From Paraglaciecola sp. MB-3u-78 (GTDB lineage: Bacteria; Pseudomonadota; Gammaproteobacteria; Enterobacterales; Alteromonadaceae): 64,000 bases of DNA. Numbering within the stretch: position 1 is the stretch's first letter; each line of letters begins with the position of its first letter. The notes under the pieces are model-generated. The model was given only the letters and a program-made list of their open reading frames with translations. It was not told the origin of the DNA and searched no databases. The DNA lies in assembly GCF_002835935.1 (NCBI RefSeq), contig NZ_PJCF01000005.1, forward strand, positions 62,001 to 126,000, written 5' to 3'. Of this stretch, positions 41,636-46,869 are shown one piece after another. Both the position numbers and the translations under genes were made by a program.

Positions 41636-42553
41636 TTATCTAGCTCCCTGCAAACCTCCTGTGTGTAATGCTAAAATACGACTTTTTTGTGGAAAGTATC
41701 CCTTTGCAATCAGCTCTCGTAATGCAAAAAATAGTTTTCCACTATACACCGGCTCAATTTCAATTTTTGTTTGTTGATAAAAGTCTTGGCAAAATTGTCT
41801 GAGTTCATGATTAGACTTAGCATATCCCCCAAAATGATAATCGTGATTGATGTGCCAGCTTTTTGAGGGTGTATCCTTTTCTAATAAGTCTGTGACGAGT
41901 TGTTCTAGGTAACCTTCACCTTTAAGCACACCAATGCCTAATATTTTACATTCTGTTAGTTTGCCGTGCTGGATTAACCCCGTGATTAACCCAGCAAGAG
42001 TGCCTCCGCTGGCAACCGGCGCCAACACATAGTCATAGGAATTTTGCAGTTCATCAATAATTTCAGCGACACCTTTGAGTGCAGGTAACTGCGAACCACC
42101 CTCAGGAATAATCAAAGCATTTGGGTATTGTCGTTGCATTGTTTGCAGGTAGGTAACGTTCGTTCGTTGTTGATATGTCTGTCGGTCAACATACTGGATA
42201 TTGGTTTTCCAACAGATTAAATCTTGCAACATAGGGCTAGGGTTGTGTGAATAATCCCCTCTGATAATCGCGGTAAATTGAATATTGAGTTGTTGGCAGC
42301 AATAACCTAAGGCGTGCACGTGATTTGAAAACCCGCCACCAAAACTGATGATATGTTTTGTCTTGGCGGCAATAGCAGGCATTAAAGCATGCTTTAGCTT
42401 GCGCCACTTATTGCCCGAGATGATTGGGTGCAGTAAATCATCCCGCTTGACCGCTAGTGTTATGCCGTTTTTTGCTCCCCAATCAGGTTGAATAATAGAT
42501 TCAGCTGAAGAGGTGGCTATTGTTAACTGTGATAATAAATTATTTTTATTCAA
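41636..42553 (-). CDS. PLP-dependent D-cysteine desulfhydrase/ACC deaminase-family enzyme
   Basis: 305 residues, fold type II PLP enzyme. The cofactor lysine is in PIISGNKWRKLKHAL; SFGGGFSNHVHALGY and PVASGGTLAGLI form the phosphate-binding loops, and ALHTGGLQG closes the fold. Members deaminate 1-aminocyclopropane-1-carboxylate or desulfurate D-cysteine; gammaproteobacterial ones are mostly D-cysteine desulfhydrases. It stands alone, divergent from the MAPEG gene. Confidence 0.82.
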   Translation of the reverse strand: MNKNNLLSQLTIATSSAESIIQPDWGAKNGITLAVKRDDLLHPIISGNKWRKLKHALMPAIAAKTKHIISFGGGFSNHVHALGYCCQQLNIQFTAIIRGDYSHNPSPMLQDLICWKTNIQYVDRQTYQQRTNVTYLQTMQRQYPNALIIPEGGSQLPALKGVAEIIDELQNSYDYVLAPVASGGTLAGLITGLIQHGKLTECKILGIGVLKGEGYLEQLVTDLLEKDTPSKSWHINHDYHFGGYAKSNHELRQFCQDFYQQTKIEIEPVYSGKLFFALRELIAKGYFPQKSRILALHTGGLQGAR

Positions 42554-42608: not shown

Positions 42609-42995
42609 ATGAGCATCATTATAATCTGTTTATTTATAGCAACCTTAATGCCCATTCTCGCTAAAGCGCCCTTGGCTTTGGCTATGAATAAGGCTGGTGG
42701 CTATGATAATCGAAACCCCCGTGAGCAACAAAAATCTTTATCGGGTTTTGGCGCTAGAGCAAAAGCGGCTCACGAAAATTGTTTTGAAGCGTTAATCATG
42801 TTTACCCCTGGCGCCCTAGCAGTGCTGGTCACTAATAATGCAGAGCAATTAGCAGAATATTTTGCTATTGCATTTGTTGCCTCAAGATTAGTTTACCTAG
42901 TTGCCTACTACTTTGATAAACATGTGTTACGCAGCACATTTTGGGGCATCGGGTTTATATCTTCCTTGTCACTTGTTTGGTTAGCTATTCCCTAG
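42609..42995 (+). CDS. MAPEG-family membrane protein
   Basis: 128 residues with four helices. The MAPEG core is visible as KAAHENCFEALIMFTPGALAVL with the conserved Glu-Asn, plus ASRLVYLVAYYFD. Family members are glutathione-dependent transferases or peroxidases, but bacterial ones of this type are largely uncharacterised. It converges on a 31-codon ORF that appears to be SoxR-controlled. Confidence 0.85.
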   Translation: MSIIIICLFIATLMPILAKAPLALAMNKAGGYDNRNPREQQKSLSGFGARAKAAHENCFEALIMFTPGALAVLVTNNAEQLAEYFAIAFVASRLVYLVAYYFDKHVLRSTFWGIGFISSLSLVWLAIP

Positions 42996-43025: not shown

Positions 43026-43121
43026 TTACTTGAAATACATAGTGCCATTGTATGTTTCTAGGATTTTTTCGATGCTGTTTTTAAGGTGATTTTTGATAGT
43101 GGTTATTAGGTTTTTCATCAT
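43026..43121 (-). CDS. Putative 31-residue protein behind a SoxR promoter
   Basis: An ORF of 31 codons plus stop, starting ATGATG at 43121 with GAGGT five bases upstream. It begins MMKNLITTIKNHLKNS and ends YNGTMYFK: a short basic, amphipathic-looking helix with no known family. It is the only ORF between the SoxR-type promoter on this strand (43159-43195) and the 3' end of the convergent MAPEG gene. In other bacteria the equivalent position is held by soxS or by efflux or oxidase genes. Translation is not proven; a small RNA is an alternative. Confidence 0.5.
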   Translation of the reverse strand: MMKNLITTIKNHLKNSIEKILETYNGTMYFK

Positions 43122-43158
43122 ATTTACCTCGATTGGTTAACGTTTGCTGTTTTCGATA

Positions 43159-43195
43159 GAGGAATCTTAAAACCTCATGTTAACTTGAGGTAAAG
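43159..43195 (-). promoter_or_regulatory. SoxR box in a MerR-type promoter
   Basis: The 18-bp dyad CCTCATGTTAACTTGAGG (43173-43190) differs from a perfect palindrome at one position and matches the known SoxR box CCTCAAGTTAACTTGAGG. On the minus strand it lies between TTTACC (-35) and TAAGAT (-10) with a 19-bp spacer, the long spacing that MerR-family activators such as SoxR need. The promoter therefore points away from soxR, toward 43121. The box is also 54 bp upstream of soxR and may mediate autoregulation. Confidence 0.88.
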
Positions 43196-43244
43196 CATTT
43201 TTTTCTCTATATTTAAAATACTTGTTTAATAAGAGGTGGTGGGG

Positions 43245-43685
43245 ATGGAAGAAGCCAATTTGTCAGTAGGTTATGTCGCCAGACGTTCGGGGGTGAAGGT
43301 GTCAACTTTGCACTTTTATGAACAAAAGGGATTAATTAGAAGTTGGCGCAATCAAGGTAATCAAAGACGGTATAAGCGAGATGTATTACGCAGAATTTCT
43401 GTCATAAAAGCAGCGCAAAAGTTAGGGATAAGTTTGAGCAGCATCCATCAAACCTTCTTAGATATGCCAAATGGTCGGACTCCAGATAAAAAGGACTGGG
43501 CGCAATTGTCAATGCGTTGGCAGCAACAACTGGATCAGCAAATTACTGCGTTGACTAAGCTTCGAGATTCACTCGATGGTTGTATAGGTTGTGGCTGCTT
43601 ATCTATGCAAAGTTGTCCTATCTATAACCCTGATGATGTGCTTGAAGGAGAAGGTCCAGGGCCGGTTATTTTAGATAGAAACTGA
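43245..43685 (+). CDS. soxR: Redox-sensing transcription regulator SoxR
   Basis: 146 residues, MerR family. The helix-turn-helix (VGYVARRSGVKVSTLHFYEQKGLI), a dimerisation helix and the [2Fe-2S]-binding cysteine cluster CIGCGCLSMQSCPIY are all present. Oxidation of the cluster by redox-cycling compounds switches on target promoters. The ATG at 43245 is chosen over the GTG at 43236 because AAGAGGTGG then serves as ribosome site. A SoxR box lies directly upstream. No soxS is adjacent, as in most non-enteric bacteria. Confidence 0.95.
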   Translation: MEEANLSVGYVARRSGVKVSTLHFYEQKGLIRSWRNQGNQRRYKRDVLRRISVIKAAQKLGISLSSIHQTFLDMPNGRTPDKKDWAQLSMRWQQQLDQQITALTKLRDSLDGCIGCGCLSMQSCPIYNPDDVLEGEGPGPVILDRN

Positions 43686-44225
43686 TTACGTTTCGCAATA
43701 TACCCTTTAGCATCTGTTATGAGAATCGTGTTTTCAGTAGCCGTGCTATTTATCTTGGGTAGAAGCGTGTCTACTAACTCAGTGCCTTGTAAACAGCCAT
43801 TGTTGTCTGAAAAATGTATTATCGATTGCCCGACAGAAGAGTGATTTTTTGTAATTGATTGACGAAGTTTTGTTCAAATTCGATTTTAGCGATAGCCATT
43901 GAGAGTTTTGATTCAGGGCCAAATTCGTCTAGCTGACTGACAGAAAGAAACAGTAATCCAGCTAAACAGGTAAAACACCGAATACCGACAACCCATTTGG
44001 CAGGCATAGTTTAGACCGAAATCGGTTGCAACTGCTGCTCAAGATTCTTACCCAATTCGGCGAATTCGAGCGCCTCGTTTTTATTGTTTGCTATGTGAAA
44101 ATCACCACATAACTGTCGCTATTAAAATTCAAATAATGGCGCGTTGTGTGGTGCAGGAATATCAAATAACAAAACAACTCTAAGTGCTAGTTGACTTATA
44201 GATGTCTATACGGCAAATTGCGTAC
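43686..44225. other. Intergenic region upstream of the threonine leader
   Basis: 540 bp. A minus-strand frame of 62 codons (43819-44007) has one hydrophobic stretch but no ribosome site and is not believed. The thr promoter is expected near the 3' end of this region. Nothing else was recognised. Confidence 0.4.
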
Positions 44226-44294
44226 ATGAAAACAATAAAATCACTCACAACCGGCATGATAATTATTACCTTTGAAAAGGTGTTCGCTGGCTAG
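44226..44294 (+). CDS. thrL: Threonine operon leader peptide
   Basis: 22 codons: MKTIKSLTTGMIIITFEKVF and two more residues, then TAG. Four threonines and four isoleucines in a short peptide directly before a terminator and thrA are the signature of thr attenuation, as in E. coli thrL, although the run is less dense. When charged tRNA-Thr or tRNA-Ile is scarce, the stalled ribosome should prevent the terminator from forming. Confidence 0.8.
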   Translation: MKTIKSLTTGMIIITFEKVFAG

Positions 44295-44313
44295 TGCATT
44301 CGCATTACACATT

Positions 44314-44345
44314 AAAAGCCCGCAACCACCGCGGGCTTTTTTGTT
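44314..44345 (+). terminator. Threonine operon attenuator
   Basis: AAAAGCCCGC (44314-44323), loop AACCACC, GCGGGCTTTT (44331-44340) and a T-run. It lies 20 bp after the thrL stop and 62 bp before thrA. Confidence 0.88.
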
Positions 44346-44406: not shown

Positions 44407-46869
44407 ATGAAGGTATTGAAGTTTGGCGGGTCGTCTCTCGCTGATGCAGAGCGTTACTTGAGAGTAAAAGACATTAGTATCGCATGTCACACCGATGTCG
44501 GTGCGGCAGTTGTATTGTCTGCTCCAAAGGGCGTCACCAATGCCTTGTCGCTATTGTGTGATGAAGCAGCATCTGGCAAAGATTACGGCGAATTGTTCGC
44601 CAAATTAAATATGGTTTTGTTTGGTATTTTGGATGACTTGAAAATTAGCCTTCCAAATTTTTCTCAAGCTAGATTAGGTGAATTTCTTCAACATACTTTA
44701 AATGAACTCAATCAGCATTTAGAAGGTTTTGCATTGTTGCGGTGTGCCCCTGAGCAGGTTGTCGCTAGAGTGTTAAGCGTTGGCGAATATGTGAGTGTGA
44801 ATATATTTAGTGAAATCTTGACCAGTCTAGGTCATGCCAATTGTATTATTGATCCGGTTAAATATATTGTTGCTGAAGGTGATTACTTAGACAGCATTGC
44901 CGATGTATCTGCTAGTAAGGCTCGCTTTAGTGATGTAGATATCTCAGGTGACAAAATATTAATTATGCCTGGGTTTGTTGCGGTGAATGCGGCGGGTGAA
45001 AAAGTCACCTTAGGTCGAAATGGTTCAGATTATTCAGCTGCTATTTTGGCTGCTTGTCTTGGTGCACAGTGTTGTGAGATTTGGACAGACGTAGATGGTG
45101 TTTATAATGCTGATCCAAACCAAGTAGATGGTGCCGTATTACTTGATAAGCTGACTTATCAAGAAGCGATGGAATTGTCTTATTTTGGTGCGAAAGTGTT
45201 ACACCCTAAAACAATTGGCCCCATCGCTCAACACCATATCCCCTGTTTAATTCGCAATACACTCAATCCAGCAGCGCCAGGTACCTTAATTAGTAACGAA
45301 GCGAGTACTAAGTGGACTAGCGTAAAAGGAATCTCACACTTAGATGATATGACTATGTTCAACGTGGCAGGTCCTGGCATGAAAGGCATGGTGGGTATGG
45401 CTAGCCGTGTGTTTGAAATTATGTCTAACGCGAATATCTCTATTAGCTTGATTACTCAGTCTTCGTCTGAATACAGCATTAGTTTCTGTATTCACAGTAG
45501 AGATGCCAGTCGCGCACAGGATTTATTAGAAGACTCATTTGCTTTAGAACTAAGCAATCATTTGCTAGACCCTATTGAAGTACGTCATGAATTGGCCATT
45601 GTCACTTTGGTAGGCGATGGGATGCGCCATTCTAAAGGTTTGGCGGCTAAATTCTTCAGCTCCTTGGCACAAGCAAGAGTGAATAACGTGGCTATTGCTC
45701 AGGGGTCTTCTGAACGCTCCATCTCCACTGTCATCGAAGCCAGCAAAGCTAAGAAAGCGGTTAAAGTTGTGCATCAGAATTTTTTCTCTAACCTACATGC
45801 TATCGATGCTTTTTTAGTAGGCTGCGGTAGTGTTGGAAAAGAGTTGTTAGCCCAAATTGCTCGCCAACAAACTGCTTTGCTTGAAAAAAATATTAGTTTA
45901 AAAGTGTACGGTATTGCCAATAGTAAAAAATTATTGCTTCAATCAAACGGCATTGATTTGAGTGCACCTTGGCAGGAAGACTTAGATAAAAGTGATAAAC
46001 AATTCTCTATCGATAATTTGAAAGCTTTTGTACACGACAACAGCTTGGTTAACCCTGTTGTTATCGACTGTACTAGTAGCGCTAATATTGCTGATCAATA
46101 TCCTCAGATGATGTTAGATGGCTTTCATGTTGTCACACCAAACAAAAAAGCCAACACCGCCAGTACTGAGTTTTATAAGCTTTTAAGAGAAACAGCTCAA
46201 AAAACTAATCGTCAATTTTTGTACGAAACCACAGTAGGTGCGGGTTTACCGGTTATCGATAATTTACAAAACTTGTTTTATGCCGGCGACGAATTAGTTC
46301 GCTTTGAGGGCATATTGTCTGGTTCATTATCCTTTGTGTTTGGTAAGTTAGATGAAGGTTTGAGTCTGTCAGAGGCAACCGAAATTGCTAAAAAGAATGG
46401 TTTTACTGAGCCTGACCCTCGTGATGATTTGAGTGGTATGGATGTAGCCAGAAAACTTCTGATTATGGCCCGTGAATCAGGTCTAACCCTTGAACTATCT
46501 GACATCACCATAGAGCCAGTATTACCATCCTATTTTGATGCCAGTGGCAGTATTGAAAATTTTATGGCGCGTTTGCCTGAATTAGATAGTTACTACGTTC
46601 AAAAAGTAGCCGCCGCGAAGAATGAAGGTAAAGTATTGCGGTATGTAGGCTCGATTGATCATGGTAAATGTGTGGTCAGTATCGAAGCTGTGAATGAGTC
46701 TCATCCCCTGTATATGGTAAAAGAGGGCGAAAATGCCTTGGCCATTCATAGTCACTATTACCAACCTATTCCTTATGTTATTCGAGGTTACGGCGCCGGT
46801 GCTGCGGTGACTGCCGCAGGTGTATTCGCAGATGTCATGCGCACTATGCCCTGGAAGCAATCTATCTAA
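44407..46869 (+). CDS. thrA: Bifunctional aspartokinase I/homoserine dehydrogenase I
   Basis: 820 residues, full length for ThrA. The aspartokinase half begins [20 protein letters not shown], with [20 protein letters not shown] and the ACT regulatory region ([17 protein letters not shown]). The dehydrogenase half begins near residue 465 ([13 protein letters not shown]) and carries the [18 protein letters not shown] and [12 protein letters not shown] motifs. It catalyses steps one and three from aspartate to homoserine. The first ACT-bearing region implies threonine feedback. Start has an AAGGAAG site; the stop overlaps thrB by one base (TAATG). Confidence 0.97.

Follow-up and report, generated by a model that had tools for sequence, protein, structure and literature searches.

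What does a SoxR-type promoter drive when it faces away from soxR and has room for only one very short open reading frame (ORF) before the next, convergent gene? Descriptions of SoxR regulons usually list enzymes, pumps and SoxS, and in Escherichia coli it is established that SoxR oxidized by redox-cycling compounds activates promoters with a 19-bp spacer. The window analyzed here, a stretch of 64,000 nucleotides from Paraglaciecola sp. MB-3u-78, holds such a promoter, for which the original prediction had offered two products: a small helical protein encoded by a 31-codon ORF, or a small regulatory RNA, in this lineage. The features on which the argument depends are the following:

43245..43685, plus strand: soxR, a MerR-family redox activator with the motif C-x2-C-x-C-x5-C (TIGR01950; 2zhg; motif)
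43189..43194, minus strand: -35 element TTTACC of the leftward promoter (from sequence; invariant across five aligned loci)
43173..43190, no strand: SoxR box CCTCATGTTAACTTGAGG, 18 bp (from sequence; conserved in aligned loci)
43164..43169, minus strand: -10 element TAAGAT (from sequence; position kept in relatives)
43126..43130, minus strand: Shine-Dalgarno sequence GAGGT, 7 nt from ATG 43118, with ribosome sites at the matching place in relatives
43026..43121, minus strand: microprotein ORF MMKNLITTIKNHLKNSIEKILETYNGTMYFK, 31 codons as listed, or 30 codons from the probable start at ATG 43118
43029..43055, minus strand: conserved C-terminal core TYNGTMYFK, the last nine codons, followed by TAA (family alignment, columns -9 to -1; the part of the ORF with the lowest pN/pS)
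42609..42995, plus strand: convergent MAPEG-family gene (ORF list; MAPEG by family profile)
43185..43213, plus strand: possible soxR promoter TTGAGG-17-TATATT (consensus scan), its -35 overlapping the SoxR box

The coordinates confirm the promoter as first described: the box lies between and around TTTACC and TAAGAT, the 19-bp spacer between the two is of the MerR/SoxR type, and the whole faces away from soxR. Across five aligned loci, TTTACC, the box and the bases just after it are nearly invariant. The window box is one mismatch from the perfect palindrome CCTCAAGTTAACTTGAGG, which is present in the same genome at C1:107826 in front of a VOC/glyoxalase-like gene; these are the only two sites for the 18-mer, at no more than one mismatch, in the 6.48 Mb of the genome. 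The neighboring gene is a true SoxR, scoring 213.5 bits against TIGR01950 (curated cut-off 116.9), with 2zhg, itself a SoxR, as its best solved relative and the four cysteines of the [2Fe-2S] motif in place (CIGCGCLSMQSC). From box and spacing, we infer that the window promoter is activated by SoxR. Homologues point to ATG 43245 rather than GTG 43236 as the start of soxR. The rightward promoter scan returned two such sites in the region, with 1.2 expected by chance, and TATATT is kept in all three relatives whose aligned stretch reaches that far; that soxR might regulate itself through this overlapping promoter is a guess.

Several other features of this neighborhood were observed. A second SoxR box occurs in six genomes of the window's genus, each time preceding a VOC-like gene (L305 in G000, L302 in G002, L314 in G004, L306 in G018, L307 in G020 and L315 in G012), and no small ORF of the family described below lies between box and gene in those six genomes. 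Behind soxR in the window, fragments of a gene (43779-44007, minus strand) are shortened relative to a longer version, an open frame of 173-178 residues, that adjoins soxR in G002, G004 and G012 (L007, L008 and L011). Further on, a short ORF resembling a threonine leader (MKTIKSLTTGMIIITFEKVFAG, 44226-44345, plus strand), with a GC-rich hairpin and a T-run, precedes an 820-codon frame at 44407; it scored 25.1 bits against the Rfam Thr_leader model, under the gathering score of 55.

Leftward of the box, the microprotein ORF is the only frame before the convergent MAPEG gene, as had been predicted; the next gene on the same strand (41636-42553) lies beyond MAPEG, and the ORF would be the sole product of the promoter. 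Both the 31-codon ORF and its GAGGT ribosome site are real. The start needs revision: it is probably the second ATG, giving 30 residues (43118-43026), because the intact ORFs of four relatives keep that ATG alone and because the ribosome site is better spaced from it (7 nt). The decayed copy in G012 has both ATGs.

These four relatives allow the coding capacity of the frame to be judged. Orthologues lie opposite soxR in three genomes of the same genus (G018, G002 and G004; 22 genomes searched, its own included), and a fourth orthologue occurs opposite soxR in another genus (G271; 395 genomes of the family searched). All four keep the length of the ORF, its ribosome site and its C-terminus. In G271, no MAPEG gene stands beside the ORF, so that plain synteny does not explain why the ORF is conserved. 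For the final 30 codons, the five sequences give a pooled pS of 0.512 and pN of 0.234 (pN/pS 0.46; ten overlapping pairs), and over the last nine codons the values are 0.420 and 0.105 (again ten overlapping pairs). Because the ten pairs overlap, significance was taken from two disjoint pairs, in which synonymous changes make up 19 of the 41 differences, the expected share being 19.3% (P = 7.7e-5). Frame conservation and synonymous bias, by which the original prediction proposed to judge the ORF, are thus both present, with frame, length and C-terminus kept in all four relatives.

Loss of the system is informative as well. In G012 (L011), the ORF is frameshifted, soxR has an internal stop and the box carries three changes, so the three elements, as read from their sequences, are decaying jointly. 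G020 has lost the ORF and shows two changes in the box and one in the -35 element. Close SoxR orthologues are lacking in most other genomes of the window's genus. The family search gave matches at E <= 0.1 in 32 of the 395 genomes, of which six hold an orthologue or a decayed copy and the remainder are weak; among the weak matches, the loci inspected were L042, L053 and L056. At L042 (G018:C157), a 64-codon ATG frame ending in KILEVYNGGVYLK resembles the end of the microprotein (E 0.03-0.25), and no SoxR box was seen at that locus. A pattern search of genome contigs returned 46 stretches, four of them confirmed, in an uncultured Paraglaciecola (L071), Paraglaciecola arctica (L072 and L073) and an uncultured Glaciecola (L074); of 498 pattern stretches in viral contigs, none was confirmed.

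The ORF list contains many frames of similar length, and a chance ORF under a genuine SoxR promoter is the first alternative to consider. It is contradicted by the orthologues and the synonymous bias, as well as by the antisense and shuffle controls given below, and its probability is negligible. Judged by these sequence comparisons, the ORF at 43026-43121 is a real gene.

The distribution of the gene was followed by reading the DNA on the divergent side of soxR. In the window's family, 200 of the 395 genomes contain a SoxR relative at E <= 1e-30; 150 of these loci, taken from the best-scoring end, were read, comprising 131 survey loci and 19 held out from the definition of the motif. In other families of the order, 48 loci were read of 80 matched. 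A locus was counted when a frame of 20-70 codons, with its ATG 40-138 nt from the box start on the same strand, ended in the C-terminal pattern. The window's own ORF has its first ATG 69 nt from the box start and ends in YNGTMYFK-stop, which agrees with the strict form of the family end, N-x-[TA]-M-x-x-K-stop. Such frames were found in 67 of 131 survey loci, 7 of 19 held-out loci and 4 of 48 loci from other families, or 78 of 198; the strict end is present in 44 of the 67 survey cases and the remainder match a looser form. The 78 members span 24 genera of the window's family (20 from the survey and four from the held-out loci) plus a single genus from each of four other families, which makes the scope much wider than the single lineage originally envisaged.

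The box itself is more widespread than the peptide. Only 5 of the 198 soxR loci have no box within seven mismatches, while 61 of the 128 box-bearing survey loci lack the peptide, as do 42 of the 46 box-bearing loci read in the order's other families (four have it). Outside the order, 18 SoxR loci were read, 16 with a box, and the pattern was found in none of the 16. A glance at the flanks of seven weaker SoxR relatives (42-45%) found no SoxR box. Occurrence can be patchy even within a genus, as in g17, where eight loci have the peptide and ten do not. Its absence from so many box-bearing loci means that the peptide is dispensable, an accessory part of the response.

Where the peptide occurs is related to the space available. 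Of 73 loci in which no frame of at least 90 codons begins within 100 nt of the box, 65 have the motif in its strict or loose form; of 52 in which such a frame does begin that close, none has it. The eight roomy loci without the motif include three with variant ends (G027, G063 and G311) and G020, where it was lost. Among held-out loci with both box and room, seven of ten carry the pattern, one of them (G057) barely, a modest outcome. Two held-out loci of genus g33 (L329 and L332, in G094 and G053) have small ORFs at the position of the microprotein with a different shared C-terminus (WQNPTF close to its end), and SoxR may control a second type of peptide there. In genus g18 (L154, L160, L197 and others), what usually comes immediately after the SoxR box is a frame resembling an FMN reductase; the one tested, at L197, is PF03358, and the peptide is absent from 26 of 27 g18 loci with a box.

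The survey loci served both to define the motif and to count it; the independent tests are the held-out loci, the antisense strand, the shuffles and the genome-wide search. The strict end was counted in the 125 survey loci whose box has six mismatches or fewer. Within 260 nt behind the box, 45 of 810 stops on the sense strand and 0 of 1122 on the antisense strand carry it; farther off, the figure is 2 of 5178. Codon-block shuffles gave it in a mean of 0.04 of the 125 loci. With windows of the same width, and summed over survey, other-family and held-out loci, the looser pattern was found in 0 of 1335 antisense, 2 of 565 farther sense and 0 of 1930 shuffled cases. A hidden Markov model (HMM) of the last 22 residues, run against 236 genomes of the family, gave 55 matches at E <= 0.01 (about 2 expected by chance), with 53 beside soxR, one in G060 and one in G239; at E <= 0.02 there were 66 matches, 56 of them beside soxR (about 5 expected by chance). 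Many of the 53 were training members of the model, and what the search adds is the near-absence of the motif elsewhere. The G060 copy lies away from that genome's own soxR, under its own box (TTTACCTCAACCTAACTTTAGG) and with an FMN reductase gene behind it. At the G239 match there is no convincing ORF, and no SoxR at E <= 1e-30 is listed for that genome. The window's own member scores modestly against the model (E 4.6e-4).

What the members share is their end. Residues were counted in 69 unique peptides, drawn from 71 ORFs in 68 loci; of 85 matches to the regular expression, 13 were dropped for a start too far from the box and L176 was also dropped, and the single extra residue after the lysine in G409 and G027 was trimmed. 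The peptides are 21-63 residues long. Lysine is last in 68 of 69, methionine stands at -4 in 61, threonine or alanine at -5 (52 and 11), asparagine at -7 (54), phenylalanine or tyrosine at -8 (55) and leucine at -9 (42). The consensus end, L-F-N-x-T-M-x-x-K-stop, follows an amphipathic stretch; upstream of this C-terminal part the sequences barely align, and the N-terminus is hypervariable. Codons in the conserved columns are mixed, with AAT 30 times and AAC 24 times for asparagine, AAA 44 and AAG 24 for lysine, and all four for threonine.

Mean hydrophobicity is high at -16, -15, -12, -11, -9, -8 and -4, positions spaced as in an amphipathic helix. In 87% of the 69 peptides, the helical moment at 100 degrees exceeds the shuffle mean (mean z 0.84), and proline occurs within the last 16 residues of only one. 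This hydrophobicity pattern gives modest grounds for viewing the C-terminus as an amphipathic helix. The mean net charge over the 69 peptides is +3.9, which, together with the amphipathic pattern, would also suit a membrane-active or toxic cationic peptide that does not dock on a partner. However, the residue-specific conservation at -7, -4 and -1 exceeds what a membrane helix needs. A peptide of this kind is improbable; it would also act in trans, and its probability overlaps that of the main reading developed below.

Whether the peptide acts in trans or on its own transcript turns on the genes behind it. A gene with a VOC-like N-terminal pattern follows in 57 of the 78 loci, and the two such genes tested by profile are PF00903. 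With the peptide as the first ORF behind the promoter, a free N-terminus and conservation running up to the stop, this arrangement resembles a cis-acting leader peptide, whose translation or arrest at the C-terminus would tune the detoxification gene behind it and which would be a relic in the window's lineage, its target gone. Against this, 16 of the 78 loci, the window included, have no frame of at least 80 codons that begins in the 250 nt after the peptide, yet the window's group, in which three of four Paraglaciecola-group loci stand alone, still shows selection on the protein. In the window, there is no regulated gene behind the ORF before the convergent one. At the fourth locus of that group (G004), the next gene is the one found beyond MAPEG in the window. 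Five loci have other following frames: an N-acetyltransferase (G264), an ECF-sigma-like frame (G119), the G004 gene and two without identity. In genus g13, there are two tandem copies with nothing behind them in the stretch read.

Spacing and loss speak against a leader as well. In 45 loci where VOC comes next, between 1 and 123 nt separate the peptide stop from the VOC start, and the following genes differ among loci. In genus g17, L099 and L100 have near-identical promoters, one driving VOC directly and the other peptide plus VOC, so that VOC is driven with the peptide removed; the loss looks as if a segment between two similar ribosome sites had been deleted. In the window and four relatives, all without VOC behind the peptide, no convincing conserved RNA structure or terminator was found. 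A leader peptide is therefore unlikely, and stand-alone loci, tandem copies, variable spacing and following genes, and the loss in g17 together favor a peptide that acts in trans.

The small regulatory RNA, which was the second of the two products first offered, fares worse. It would be SoxR-controlled, coding or not, and the transcript in the window would indeed be short; RNAalifold found a five-pair long-range helix beyond the palindrome of the box, with two pairs showing a compensatory change in one sequence. Nevertheless, no pair of that helix is intact in all five sequences, each being broken or gapped in one or two, and the covariation term is +0.6. Beyond the palindrome little structure is conserved, there is no Rfam match up to E = 1, a terminator-like site was not found and the conservation tracks codons. 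Such an RNA is very improbable. On this evidence, the non-coding RNA and the chance ORF have been rejected, and the leader peptide has been rejected as the main reading.

By contrast, the first of the two offered products, a SoxR-controlled small protein, is supported by the kept frame and C-terminus, by synonymous change and by recurrence behind SoxR boxes. The reading that we consider likely is a SoxR-induced microprotein that acts in trans through its C-terminal helix and belongs to an undescribed family. Redox-cycling compounds would oxidize SoxR, which would then turn on synthesis of the peptide; the transcript would yield the peptide first, and the peptide would work in trans. Its amphipathic C-terminal helix, with a free terminal lysine, probably docks on one common partner, in a protein groove or on a membrane surface, with the N-terminus as a free extension. 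It would work beside detoxification enzymes of the same regulon (VOC/glyoxalase-like, with one case each of an FMN reductase and an N-acetyltransferase), whose genes lie behind its own in most species. More tentatively, and this may well prove wrong, the helix with its fixed terminal lysine could bind the same target throughout a large group of marine gammaproteobacteria, for example SoxR itself, its Rsx/RseC reducing system, a drug pump or the ribosome, and a peptide of 20-60 residues could thereby carry or limit the response to redox drugs.

Known systems share parts of this picture. The SoxR/soxS system of enteric bacteria has the same regulator, box and 19-bp promoter facing away from soxR, and in most of ten f18 loci TTTACCTCAAGTTAACTTGAGGAATTATACT stands before a frame that is presumably soxS; unlike SoxS and other direct SoxR targets, the product in the window is no SoxS, pump or enzyme but a microprotein. 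AcrZ, MgtS and CydX are stress-induced tiny proteins that bind a larger partner, as the microprotein is proposed to do; the new peptides match no Pfam or NCBIfam family above cut-off. Leader and arrest peptides of the ThrL and TnaC type also have a short first ORF, a free N-terminus and a conserved C-terminus, whereas the microprotein often has no gene behind it, is variably spaced and can be lost cleanly without the gene that follows. The VOC/glyoxalase-like genes behind SoxR boxes, which are its usual partners under the same promoter, encode an enzyme of known fold, and the peptide is a separate gene in front.

Catalogs of known families contain no relative that could be found. Twelve peptides each were compared with Pfam and NCBIfam, with no match above cut-off, and three with PADLOC and six with PHROGs gave only weak matches, the best at E 0.0057 (PADLOC PDC-S05, one peptide). 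A search of 5.77 billion predicted proteins with a longer alignment, built from other members, gave 12 matches at E <= 10 among 45 candidates; the method needs shared five-residue words and is insensitive for such short proteins. Five matches are named, all as "hypothetical" or "uncharacterized", from Pleionea litopenaei, Aliiglaciecola aliphaticivorans, Neiella marina, Alteromonas flava and Cognaticolwellia aestuarii; at least the Aliiglaciecola match is identical to a row of the query, others may come from genomes that supplied rows, and these matches are no independent confirmation. With 12 matches among 5.77 billion proteins, gene finders probably miss most members. Among the papers listed by full-text searches of a collection with few subscription journals, none describes such a peptide, judging by title and abstract. 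The family thus appears to be undescribed and nearly unannotated.

A conserved peptide encoded first behind SoxR promoters across about two dozen genera would fill a gap in the picture of how cells respond to redox-active antibiotics. It also offers a short, testable object with a sharply defined functional end.
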